Shown: positions 26,681-31,412 of the stretch, one piece after another
Layout: each line of letters opens with the position of its first letter
How positions within the stretch are numbered: position 1 is the first letter of the stretch
DNA from: Saprospiraceae bacterium
GTDB taxonomy: Bacteria > Bacteroidota > Bacteroidia > Chitinophagales > Saprospiraceae
Reading direction: 5' to 3'
Assembly (NCBI GenBank): GCA_028279185.1
Contig: JANQSS010000169.1
Location: forward strand, 1 to 64,000
DNA: 64,000 nt
The notes under the pieces: model-generated
Databases searched by the model: none
What the model saw: only the letters and a program-made list of their open reading frames with translations
Told to the model about the DNA's origin: nothing
Made by a program: the position numbers and the translations under genes

Positions 26681-27253
26681 ATGGCCAAGACGAATAAAGA
26701 AACAAACCAAATCATCGTTGATGCATTTTTAGAGAAGAATGAGCGAGTAATGGCACATTTCTATCAAACCCAATGGCCTATTACGCTTCGTATACTTAAG
26801 ACAGCGGGATGTTCAGAATCCGAGGCAAAGGATATCATGCAAAGGTCCTTCATCACATTGTATGATAAAATCAGAAATGGAAAATATGAAAATCGACAAG
26901 AGGCATCAATTTCTACTTATTTTCAAAAAATATGTCGATTCAGTATGTTAAACCATCGTCGTGCTGCTCACAAATCAAGAACGAGTTACATTGATATATT
27001 AGAGATAGAACTTCCCAACCATGGAAAGAACGATAATTTTGAATTTTTTGATTCAGAAAATGAATCCCGTTGTCAAAAACTTCTCAACGAAATAGGGGAA
27101 AAATGCCGGAAGATTCTGATTGCCTTTTATTGGGATAACAGAAGTATTGAAGAAATAGCCACCATGCAACAACTTACCTATGAGTCGGCTAAAAATGCCA
27201 AGTACCGATGTTTGGCTCGAATGAAAAAAATGATGACAAATAATAACGTATGA
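26681..27253 (+). CDS. ECF-type RNA polymerase sigma factor
   Basis: A 190-residue sigma-70 family protein. Region 2 lies at about residues 20-95 (YQTQWPITLRILKTAGCSESEAKDIMQRSFITLYDKI) and region 4 at about 135-185 (CRKILIAFYWDNRSIEEIATMQQLTYESAKNAKYRCLARMKKMM). The stop overlaps the start of the downstream TPR membrane gene (ATGA), so the two are coupled. It is a paralogue in kind and arrangement of the sigma factor at 5297-5860. The likely regulon includes the adjacent CHAT/surface genes, which is inference. Confidence 0.9.
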   Translation: MAKTNKETNQIIVDAFLEKNERVMAHFYQTQWPITLRILKTAGCSESEAKDIMQRSFITLYDKIRNGKYENRQEASISTYFQKICRFSMLNHRRAAHKSRTSYIDILEIELPNHGKNDNFEFFDSENESRCQKLLNEIGEKCRKILIAFYWDNRSIEEIATMQQLTYESAKNAKYRCLARMKKMMTNNNV

Positions 27254-27984
27254 ACACCTCTGAAGAAACTGTAATTCTTTTCAATCTATATCTGAGAGGT
27301 GAAATGACTTCCGAAGAACGAAGTCAATTTGAATCGAAACTTTCCTCCGATCCGAAGTTTCATGCGTCTTTCCTACTCCATCAAGAGGTCGTGGAATCTA
27401 TCGAAAATTATACTCTAAAAGCTAAAATGCAAGAATGGCACCCTGATTCTACACCTCAACCAAAAAACTATTCTATTTGGATTAAGCCAGCAATTGGCGC
27501 CCTAATACTCCTGGGGCTATATGTTATCTTTAATTTAATTAAGCCGCAAAAGGTAAGTGAAAGTCCCACATTATTTACAAAATACTATTATGCTGACCCG
27601 GGCTTGCCGATAACAATGGGAAATTCGAATTTGCTCTCATTAGAAAAAGGTATGCAGGCTTATAAGCTTGGTGATTATGATGCTGCACTTGATGAATGGA
27701 ATGTGTTGGTGGCTAGCGGAATAGGTAATGACACAGTAAAATACTACGTCGGGTCGGCGTACTTGGCACTCGATGAACAATCTACAGCCATTCATTGGTT
27801 TGAGCAAGTTCCCCGTTTTTCCATTTATTACGAAAAAGCACTTTGGTACATTTTATTGGCCCAACTAAAGGATGAAAATATGGAAGCAGCTATGCGCACG
27901 CATAAGATGCTACTGTCGACCGACCCAAAGTTTCACAAAAAAGAATTGAATGAACTCAAGGATTTTTTAGACTTAAACGAATAA
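27250..27984 (+). CDS. single-span membrane protein with anti-sigma-like N-terminus and periplasmic TPR region
   Basis: A 244-residue protein overlapping the sigma gene by four bases. The cytoplasmic N-terminus (NLYLRGEMTSEERSQFESKLSSDPKFHASFLLHQEVVESI...KAKMQEW) has the form of Bacteroidota anti-sigma proteins. A membrane span lies at about 76-96 (IWIKPAIGALILLGLYVIFNLI), followed by TPR-like helices outside (GMQAYKLGDYDAALDEWNVLV, YVGSAYLALDEQSTAIHWFEQV). It matches the product of 4561-5307 in size, topology and partner. The anti-sigma role is inferred. Confidence 0.8.
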   Translation: MNTSEETVILFNLYLRGEMTSEERSQFESKLSSDPKFHASFLLHQEVVESIENYTLKAKMQEWHPDSTPQPKNYSIWIKPAIGALILLGLYVIFNLIKPQKVSESPTLFTKYYYADPGLPITMGNSNLLSLEKGMQAYKLGDYDAALDEWNVLVASGIGNDTVKYYVGSAYLALDEQSTAIHWFEQVPRFSIYYEKALWYILLAQLKDENMEAAMRTHKMLLSTDPKFHKKELNELKDFLDLNE

Positions 27985-28390: not shown

Positions 28391-29287
28391 CTACCCTTCC
28401 AGAGCTGCAGCACCGCCAACGATCTCTGATAACTCTTTGGTAATAGCTTCCTGGCGTGCTTTATTGTAGGAAATTTTCAAATCCTTAACCAATTCTTCGG
28501 CATTTTCTGTGGCTTTGTCCATAGCTGTCATCCGTGCACCGTGCTCTGATGCATGGGTATCAAGCAAATACCGCTGAAATTGGATCTGAAGAATTGATGG
28601 AATCAACTCATTAAGAAGCGTTTCTTCATCTGGTTCAAAAATGTAATCCGCCCGATGCCCACTTGCTGGGTTATCACCTGTCGTTTCTATTTTTTTAACC
28701 GGTAAAAATTGTTCCGCCTCCGGAAATTGTTGCGCCGCATTCTTGAATCGCCCGAAAACTACATGAACACGATCGTATCGTTTTTCAGCAAATCGATCCA
28801 TAATAAGTTGTGATACAGGAGAAATATTTTCATATGATAAATCAGAAAATAAATCCATGTGGTCGGTAACGATTTTCAAGTCTGCATATCGCCGTTTCAA
28901 GTAGTCGTATCCTTTTTTACCGATCATCGCAAGTGTTATTCCCTTACTTGTGCGTAGATGAGCGTAATCTTCTTCTATGAGGCGCGCTGCTTCTTTTGAA
29001 ATATTCGCATTGAAAGCACCGGCCAATCCGCGATTGGATGTAACAACAACAATTAAAACATTTTGCACTTCCCGATCATCACTAAATGAAGTAACGCCAG
29101 ATCCATCCGTATTGCTCAAAATATTGCGAAGCATGTCGTTCAACTTCATCGCATACGGACGTAAACTTACAATCGCATCTTGTGCACGGCGAAGTTTCGC
29201 AGCGGAAACCATTTTCATCGCCTTGGTTATCTGCTGCGTCGATTGCACCGATTTTATTCTATCCCGTACTTCTTTTAGACTTCCCAT
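28391..29287 (-). CDS. atpG: ATP synthase F1 subunit gamma
   Basis: A 298-residue central-stalk subunit that rotates inside the alpha/beta hexamer and couples proton flow to ATP synthesis. The N-terminal helix MGSLKEVRDRIKSVQSTQQITKAMKMVSAAKLRRAQ and C-terminal helix ARMTAMDKATENAEELVKDLKISYNKARQEAITKELSEIVGGAAALE are diagnostic. It is the last gene of the operon. The beta and epsilon genes (atpD, atpC) are not in this window, as is usual in Bacteroidota, where they lie elsewhere. The 541-base gap to atpA is abnormal and holds an inserted pseudogene. Confidence 0.98.
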   Translation of the reverse strand: MGSLKEVRDRIKSVQSTQQITKAMKMVSAAKLRRAQDAIVSLRPYAMKLNDMLRNILSNTDGSGVTSFSDDREVQNVLIVVVTSNRGLAGAFNANISKEAARLIEEDYAHLRTSKGITLAMIGKKGYDYLKRRYADLKIVTDHMDLFSDLSYENISPVSQLIMDRFAEKRYDRVHVVFGRFKNAAQQFPEAEQFLPVKKIETTGDNPASGHRADYIFEPDEETLLNELIPSILQIQFQRYLLDTHASEHGARMTAMDKATENAEELVKDLKISYNKARQEAITKELSEIVGGAAALEG

Positions 29288-29301
29288 TTTTAATTATTTT
29301 C

Positions 29302-29810
29302 AATGCGGTAATGAGACAATATGGCAATTTGATAATTAACTATTTCGTTTAACGGTCCCAATAATCGCACTTAATATTTTTCCAATTTCAATATTCTTTT
29401 CAACAAGATCTCCTGGATCAGGTAACACTTCCGAAGATTCGCACAGCTTCAACCAATAACCCGTCTCTCTACTCTCCTTATCCGCTATTTTCAACTTATG
29501 AACAAAATCAGCTTTACTCTCAGGACTCTGAGCCTCGTGCACGTTTGCTCCAATCGACGTTCCACAACGAAATAATTGCGACGATAATTCAAAATGCTTC
29601 TCTTAACGCAACTTCTGAGTAAAATTGATAATATCGAGCGCAAACAAAAATGTTTTATCCAGTATAGGGTTTCCAGAATCCACTTAAAATGAACTTTTTA
29701 CTAGATTTATCAATTAACTGATTTTCCGAATTCGGCTTTACAGTACCTCCTAACTATCCATTTCCTGATTTTATCATTGTCATATTGACACATTTTCACA
29801 TTACCGCATT
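29302..29810. mobile_element. insert between atpA and atpG with short inverted terminal repeats
   Basis: AATGCGGTAATGAG at 29302-29315 and its inverted near-copy at 29797-29810 (13 of 14 matching) bound a segment containing the four-helix-bundle pseudogene. Inside each repeat a second similar block follows (ACAATATGGCAATTTGATAA; TCAATATGACAATGATAA on the other strand). The right end carries extra TGTGAAAATG-type units. No transposase is present. Calling it a mobile insert is inference from the repeats and the broken operon spacing. Confidence 0.45.
29336..29683 (-). pseudogene. four-helix-bundle protein (IVS/23S rRNA intervening-sequence type), interrupted by one stop
   Basis: Reading from a GTG at 29683 gives 26 codons (MDSGNPILDKTFLFALDIIN...KLR), then TAA at 29605-29603. 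The same frame then continues EKHFELSSQLFRCGTSIGANVHEAQSPESKADF and ESRETGYWLKL to the stop at 29336. The total, 115 codons before the final stop, is the normal length of this family, whose hallmarks are S-x-Q-L-x-R-x-G-T-S-I-G-A-N and SRETxYWL. A start at an internal GTG (29542) would leave only 68 residues. The single in-frame stop makes this a recent pseudogene or, less likely, a truncated functional form. Confidence 0.8.
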
Positions 29811-29828
29811 TTCACATTGCCACATTAA

Positions 29829-31412
29829 TCAAGAAAATTGTCTTGATAGTTCAGCTCCCAGTGCTTCTACAGCACTAATCGCCTCATCGGTCAATTTACC
29901 AGATTTAAAATCTGCCAATGCCTCCGGATGCCTTTGCTCCAGCGTAGTTAAGAAGGTTTCTTCAAATTCCTTCATTTTATTAACCGGTACATCTTTTACC
30001 AGACCTTTAGATCCGAGATAAATGATGGCTACTTGTTTTTCTACGGATACCGGAGAATATTGCGCTTGTTTTAGGATTTCGACGTTGCGCTCTCCCTTGT
30101 CCAGGACAGCTTGCGTCGCAGCGTCCAGATCAGAACCAAATTTTGCGAAGGCCTCCAATTCGCGATATTGCGCTTGATCGAGTTTTAATGTACCCGATAC
30201 TTTTTTCATGGACTTAATTTGAGCATTACCCCCTACCCGTGATACAGAAATACCCACATTAATAGCAGGGCGTACACCGGCATTAAATAAGTTTGACTCA
30301 AGGAAAATTTGCCCATCCGTAATCGAAATTACATTTGTTGGAATGTAAGCCGAAACGTCACCCGCTTGCGTTTCGATAATGGGTAATGCCGTCAAAGAAC
30401 CACCACCTCGAACGATACCTGCATTTTTTAAGGACACGGGCAAATCGTTCATATCATTGGCAATGCTATCGTTATTAATAACTTTTGCAGCGCGCTCCAA
30501 CAGACGTGAGTGCAGGTAAAACACATCACCAGGATAAGCTTCACGACCTGGAGGACGTCGGAGTAGTAGCGACACCTCGCGGTATGCCACGGCTTGTTTA
30601 GACAAATCATCATAGACGATCAATGCTGGGCGTCCGGTGTCTCGGAAAAATTCACCAATTGCGGCGCCCGAAAGTGGCGCATAGAATTGAAGAGGCGCAG
30701 GATCCGAGGCAGACGCAGACACGATGACGGTGTAATCCATTGCTCCATTCTCCTCCAACGTCTTTGCAATTTGAGCTACGGTAGATGCCTTTTGGCCTGA
30801 AGCAACATATATACAGAAAACAGGTTCTCCCCGCTCGTAGAATTCCTTTTGATTCAAGATCGTATCGATGGCAATAGCTGTTTTGCCAACCTGACGATCA
30901 CCGATAATTAGCTCACGTTGTCCGCGACCGATTGGAATCATTGCATCAATGGCCTTGATTCCAGTCTGAAGGGGTTCACTAACCGGTTCGCGATAAATTA
31001 CACCAGGGGCCTTACGCTCAATTGGCATTTCATAGAGATCACCCGTAATTGGACCACGGCCGTCAATTGGTTGACCAAGTGTATTTACAACACGGCCCAA
31101 CATGCCTTCACCAACATTGATTGAGGCAATCTTTCCCGTACGTCTTACTGTTGCACCTTCGCGAATCCCTTTTCCGGATCCCAGAAGTACCACACCTACA
31201 TTGTCCTCTTCAAGGTTAAGTGCAATGGCTTGCACCCCATTTTCGAACTCAACAAGCTCTCCGGCCTGTGTTTTCGAAAGTCCATAAACGCGAGCGATTC
31301 CATCACCCACTTGCAGGACCGTGCCAATTTCTTCTAATTCTGCTTCAGTTTTAAATCCGGATAATTCTTGTTTTATTATCGCGGATATTTCATCTGGTTT
31401 TACATCTACCAT
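29829..31412 (-). CDS. atpA: ATP synthase F1 subunit alpha
   Basis: A 527-residue non-catalytic nucleotide-binding subunit of the F1 hexamer. It has the Walker A motif [11 protein letters not shown], the alpha-type N-terminus ([14 protein letters not shown]...ELVEFENG), the signature [17 protein letters not shown] and the C-terminal helical domain. Length is slightly above the E. coli protein (513 aa). It lies 18 bases downstream of atpH in the operon. Confidence 0.99.

Follow-up and report, generated by a model that had tools for sequence, protein, structure and literature searches.

A decayed PF05635 four-helix-bundle gene between inverted octamer arms in the atpA-atpG spacer of a Saprospiraceae bacterium, a candidate copy of a compact mobile element

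The window, i.e., the whole 64,000-nt stretch of a Saprospiraceae genome that was analysed, contains a dead four-helix-bundle gene between the ATP synthase genes atpA and atpG, bordered on both sides by inverted arrays of degenerate octamers. On balance, we favour the interpretation of this site as the decayed remnant of a compact mobile element, composed of inverted arrays of 7- or 8-nt units and one PF05635/S23 gene, whose spread is driven by the encoded protein. Elements of this type are ~450-600 bp in size and encode a four-helix-bundle protein of ~120 residues. The features of the site are:

28391..29287, minus strand: atpG, the downstream neighbour, on the same strand as the pseudogene
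29302..29336, plus strand: downstream arm (relative to the gene), ~4 degenerate octamers, AATGCGGT, AATGAGAC, AATATGGC, AATTTGAT
29336..29683, minus strand: PF05635 (S23, four-helix-bundle) pseudogene with a GTG start and a TAA at codon 27 (29605-29603)
29770..29826, minus strand: upstream arm, 7 degenerate octamers in the opposite orientation to those of the downstream arm, 2 nt past the atpA stop
29829..31412, minus strand: atpA, the upstream neighbour, on the same strand as the pseudogene

The pseudogene frame (29683-29336) comprises 115 codons plus a stop, with a single internal TAA. With X placed at this stop, it matches the PF05635 profile (23S_rRNA_IVP; E=3e-22), covering positions 5-105 of the 106 in the profile. 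This confirms the first-pass annotation, which had read a GTG-started four-helix-bundle frame with one TAA at codon 27, and had placed it inside the ATP synthase operon. The same copy, with one TAA, is also recovered by a PF05635 search of the whole genome. The TAA is known from one genome and is either a true stop or an assembly error. The unit had been described as decayed and non-autonomous. The window copy is decayed, but PF05635 copies mostly carry an open frame, and thus the class need not be non-autonomous.

The core of the arm pair (29302-29336 and 29776-29810) is 35 nt long and 83% complementary, a match equalled by none of 5000 dinucleotide shuffles. The right arm extends to 29826 and reads, on the coding strand, AATGTGGC, AATGTGAA, AATGCGGT, AATGTGAA, AATGTGTC, AATATGAC, AATGATAA. 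In both arms, lag 8 is the best among lags 4-12, which 17 and 37 of 5000 shuffles also achieved. The downstream arm stops 14 nt short of the atpG start and the upstream arm follows directly after the atpA stop. The 14-bp inverted repeat recognized at first is real, but it represents only two units of these longer octamer arms. The idea of a fixed 14-bp terminal repeat has to be replaced by that of period-7/8 arrays, in which each copy has its own unit. The single Rfam match (16 bits, relative to a gathering score of 45) lies outside the element and was taken as chance.

The space between atpA and atpG measures 541 nt in the window, compared with 6-207 nt, too short for the gene, in 29 relatives, of which 27 belong to the same family and two to the same order. 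The comparison of this junction in sister species, which had been proposed as a check, thus yielded a gene-free site, and by this comparison of sequences the arrangement in the window is the derived state. By eye, gene-less octamer arrays were identified in the gap of two relatives, L142 (GATTAAGT/ACTTAATC) and L150 (GTTGAATC/GATTCAAC), and gene-less 7/8-mer arrays in that of L139, L144 and L146. The L150 unit GTTGAATC recurs in the upstream arm of a gene copy (L320) in the same genome. The presence of gene-less arrays in the spacer of several relatives suggests that it has been invaded repeatedly.

PF05635 was found in 126 of the 150 genomes sampled from the window's family. At 54 of 75 Saprospiraceae PF05635 loci, the gene has its own inverted arms (above the cross-locus 95th percentile), compared with 7 of 66 controls (p=3e-14). 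The latter include 3 of 23 PF05973 loci, 3 of 23 GIY-YIG loci and 1 of 20 segment pairs 1.65-2 kb away. Thus, the pairing of repeats around four-helix-bundle genes, for which a search had been suggested, does recur. The best self-match is at lag 7, 8, 14 or 16 in 112 of the 150 flanks of these 75 loci and in 37 of 132 control flanks. Clear arms are missing at about a quarter of PF05635 loci. The unit differs from locus to locus (e.g., TCAGGTG, TTAGATN, TTAGTAT, AGACCTG, TTTGGCTG). GIY-YIG genes were considered as a second cargo of the arrays and rejected, given arms at only 3 of 23 loci. A second four-helix-bundle gene in the window's genome (L004, G000:C38:35484-35795) is located, by eye, between tRNA-Ile- and tRNA-Ala-like genes, the neighbours usual in an rRNA operon spacer.

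Lags 7 and 8 also prevail in other Bacteroidota (n=50 loci) and at ten loci of other phyla or unnamed bacteria, where inverted arms outnumber direct ones 10 to 0; the 80 named loci partly overlap the first set, and some of the other-phyla loci are from MAGs, so that binning errors are possible. Cyanobacterial PF05635 loci likewise have tandem heptamer arms. Two strong arms are present at 54 of 174 distinct loci, and they match better inverted at 46 and better direct at 8. Polarity relative to the gene is nearly constant, with a G-rich upstream and a C-rich downstream arm in 38 cases and the reverse in 4 (38/42). Arms of five units are the most frequent, followed by those of four. The gene is in sense orientation with both neighbours in 111 cases and antisense in 20 (raw counts). 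Phages were searched as carriers with one query against 50,697 records, and no match was found.

Filled and empty sites can be compared in cyanobacterial plasmids. In Picosynechococcus PCC 7003, the gene lies with short arms between cas10 and cmr3; PCC 7002, which is 91% identical, has a 12-nt spacer there and lacks the gene. Synechocystis records matching both cas10 and cmr3 list no four-helix-bundle gene. Nostoc edaphicum has the arrangement (AGTAGGG)n-gene-(CCCTACT)n between nrdB and nrdA, where Calothrix NIES-4105 (84% identical) has 40 nt, and the alignment breaks at the arm limits. At these two junctions, no target duplication is visible at 91% and 84% identity, and the empty spacer includes 11-13 nt that match nothing at the filled site. 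In Anabaena sp. 90, a copy flanked by heptamer arms separates cas6 from cas4. Dolichospermum UHCC 0315A, which is 99.0% identical over the matched parts, has neither the gene nor the arms at this position, and its spacer (L292:2620-2880) contains a different inverted repeat, GTAGGTTGGGTTG...CAACCCAACCTAC. Together with the gene-free site in the 29 relatives and the recurrence of arms, these strain-level empty sites give good support to the earlier suggestion of a small mobile unit. Compared as sequences, gene and arms form one unit, present or absent together and tied to the dispersed arrays described below. Three cyanobacterial plasmid copies are inside CRISPR-cas operons (L277, L279 and L280), two of them between cas6 and cas4 and one between cas10 and cmr3. 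For the Anabaena sp. 90 copy, the heptamer arm on the downstream side falls within the annotated cas4 start, and the upstream arm (L280:3630-3990) has grown to >300 bp of mixed GGTGACA and GGGAACA heptamers.

Arm sequence and period are also linked to the protein. Arm sequence is shared (score at least 22) in 31% of locus pairs at 50-70% protein identity and in 5-10% at 30-50% identity, although the overall rank correlation of unit and protein is weak (0.10). The repeat period follows the protein phylogeny: period (7, 8 or 9) changes 11 times on the protein tree, compared with a mean of 17.6 and a minimum of 12 in 500 shuffles. The same pattern would result if gene and arms were inherited together, and by itself it is no proof of recognition.

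Arrays without the gene are scattered through genomes that carry it. The mean number of TYAG array matches is 0.3 in the 24 genomes without the gene, and 9, 15, 17 and 86 in genomes with 1, 2-3, 4-6 and at least 7 copies, respectively; these are pattern searches with four heptamers, in which overlapping matches and gene-copy arms are also counted. Across 150 genomes, array number correlates with PF05635 copy number (rho 0.56, p=1.5e-13; 0.49 as a partial correlation for genome size), with a p-value that ignores relatedness and thus treats related genomes as independent. A permissive genome may favour both gene copies and arrays. Arrays occur on many contigs of G021 and G029, compared with three and two gene copies, respectively. 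Sequences matching the arm of locus L041 occur at about 20 other places in G119, and at a few in G012, a genome without PF05635. When a 6.3-kb query from G119 was compared with its genus partner, the flanks aligned too little to show an empty site, but scattered matches to the arm came to light. A Nostoc plasmid contains gene-less arrays of TCAGGAG, the unit of its gene copy, two of them as an inverted pair at most 1 kb from the gene. In four genomes, picked because a gene copy and arrays were both at hand, the unit of the gene copy is that of the dispersed arrays (best of 24 assignments). Repeats unlinked to the gene, which the first-pass annotation had named as evidence against a mobile unit, thus do exist, but in the genomes compared their unit is that of the gene copy, and they look like gene-less derivatives of it.

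A second array of octamers, AATGTGGT, was identified at C207 of the window's genome. The possibility that arrays are a background of these genomes was rejected on a scan of 464 kb of the window's genome. Outside a masked region, it revealed no other strong array at any lag, with a threshold too high for the arms in the window as well.

The element is explained neither by reverse transcriptase nor by Y1 transposase. Avd, the accessory protein of diversity-generating retroelements, is a small pentameric four-helix-bundle protein, but unlike those systems the window's genome has no match to a reverse transcriptase (RVT_1), and array-rich genomes without RVT_1 exist (e.g., G014 and G023). REP/RAYT systems (Y1) similarly associate a single gene with dispersed gene-less repeats. 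They differ in that the element described here has no Y1 domain and has period-7/8 arrays, and Y1 genes do not track the arrays, as Y1 transposases are present in array-free genomes (e.g., G064, G066 and G073).

The closest known relative is the intervening sequence (IVS) of 23S rRNA with an S23/PF05635 ORF, as in Coxiella burnetii (PMC4990558), which resembles the window element in protein family, complementary termini and small size. The Coxiella IVS has three tandem GACAGAT heptamers upstream of the S23 ORF, variable between strains, and IVS function and origin were called unclear >25 years after discovery (PMC4990558). The window element differs from it in its position in a protein operon, its octamer unit, its decayed gene and the dispersed gene-less arrays. 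We call it a putative variant of the IVS kind, and not a classical IVS, because the PF05635 family and complementary termini match whereas the location outside 23S/16S rRNA does not. Arrays of TAACTGA were described from Beggiatoaceae, Cyanobacteria and Bacteroidetes without an apparent mechanism (MacGregor 2015, PMC4679880), and a search of that paper found no mention of a four-helix-bundle gene. Like the cyanobacterial heptamers, they are tandem 7-mers in intergenic spacers, as at cyanobacterial PF05635 loci, and TAACTGA is the complement of TCAGTTA, a unit found in PF05635 arms. Both these and the cyanobacterial heptamer repeats (STRR type) were described without link to a gene, and the unit in the window is, by difference, an octamer. 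In the open-access literature, with subscription papers mostly outside the scope, we found no paper linking the IVS/S23 gene to heptamer repeats. The anatomy of a widespread element and its link to orphan heptamer repeats thus appear to be undescribed so far.

How such an element might move can be outlined. The protein, probably a pentamer, would bind its own repeat; two solved relatives (2gsc and 2rld) are each listed with five chains. One repeat unit per pentamer subunit is a suggestion that the modal arm length of 4-5 units would fit, and the pentamer idea draws on the chain counts and the arm-length histogram only. Repeat binding would drive the spread of gene-bearing copies between intergenic spacers, and that of gene-less copies in trans. 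Because no nuclease or transposase family includes the protein, movement is probably through host enzymes. On this model, the 23S rRNA intervening sequence would have arisen when a member of the class inserted into an rRNA operon, and gene-less derivatives would account for at least some of the cyanobacterial and TAACTGA-type heptamer repeats. More tentatively, we propose a transposase-free mobile class, in which a pentameric protein reads 7/8-nt arrays, sets their spacing and mobilises gene-less arrays in trans, and which could be a source of heptamers in Bacteroidota, Cyanobacteria and others, with the rRNA IVS as one outpost. Linking IVS elements to dispersed heptamer repeats provides a candidate cause for repeats of so far unexplained origin; gene-less copies of mirrored 7/8-letter runs may explain scattered short repeats, with the element found across several bacterial phyla. 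If true, it would also explain why the annotation 'four helix bundle protein' turns up in odd places, such as an essential operon or CRISPR-cas operons. According to its authors, the Coxiella S23 protein is probably not made (PMC4990558), which counts against this model.

Alternatively, the gene could be a passenger, with 7/8-mer arrays spreading by slippage and recombination and genes inserting into or surviving beside them. Gene-less arrays can indeed outnumber gene copies (G029, G021), and a few occur in G012 without any PF05635 gene. Yet the 24 gene-free genomes average only 0.3 TYAG arrays, within this bacterial family arms do not accompany other small genes, the arms have the same polarity with respect to the gene in 38 of 42 cases, and period follows the protein tree. 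We therefore regard this explanation as unlikely, although it is the one that merits most attention after protein-driven spread.

The arms could instead be an RNA device that forms a stem in the transcript, from which RNase III cuts the gene out of the operon or rRNA message, spread being rare and incidental. Consistent with this, RNase III has been reported to excise the Coxiella IVS (PMC4990558), most copies share the orientation of both neighbours (111, compared with 20 in antisense), and the window arms pair in the predicted fold. The fold energy of the whole window element is, however, no better than that of shuffles (z -0.41), and a stem needs neither a 7/8-nt period nor dispersed single arrays. 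We consider this improbable as the full explanation, but the arms could serve as an RNA device and still belong to a mobile element. A conventional MITE or insertion sequence derivative with a captured gene, moved in trans by a host transposase, would likewise have inverted ends, a small size, intergenic positions and copies without the gene. Its ends would not be expected to be degenerate period-7/8 arrays with a unit that differs per copy and no fixed terminal repeat; moreover, no target duplication is visible at the two junctions, at 84% and 91% identity, and Y1 transposases occur in array-free genomes (G064, G066, G073). This origin seems very improbable, and a protein-driven element remains our preferred reading.

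Also present in the window, at 26681-27984, are two adjoining frames that by eye resemble a sigma-factor-like small protein and a membrane protein with repeats.
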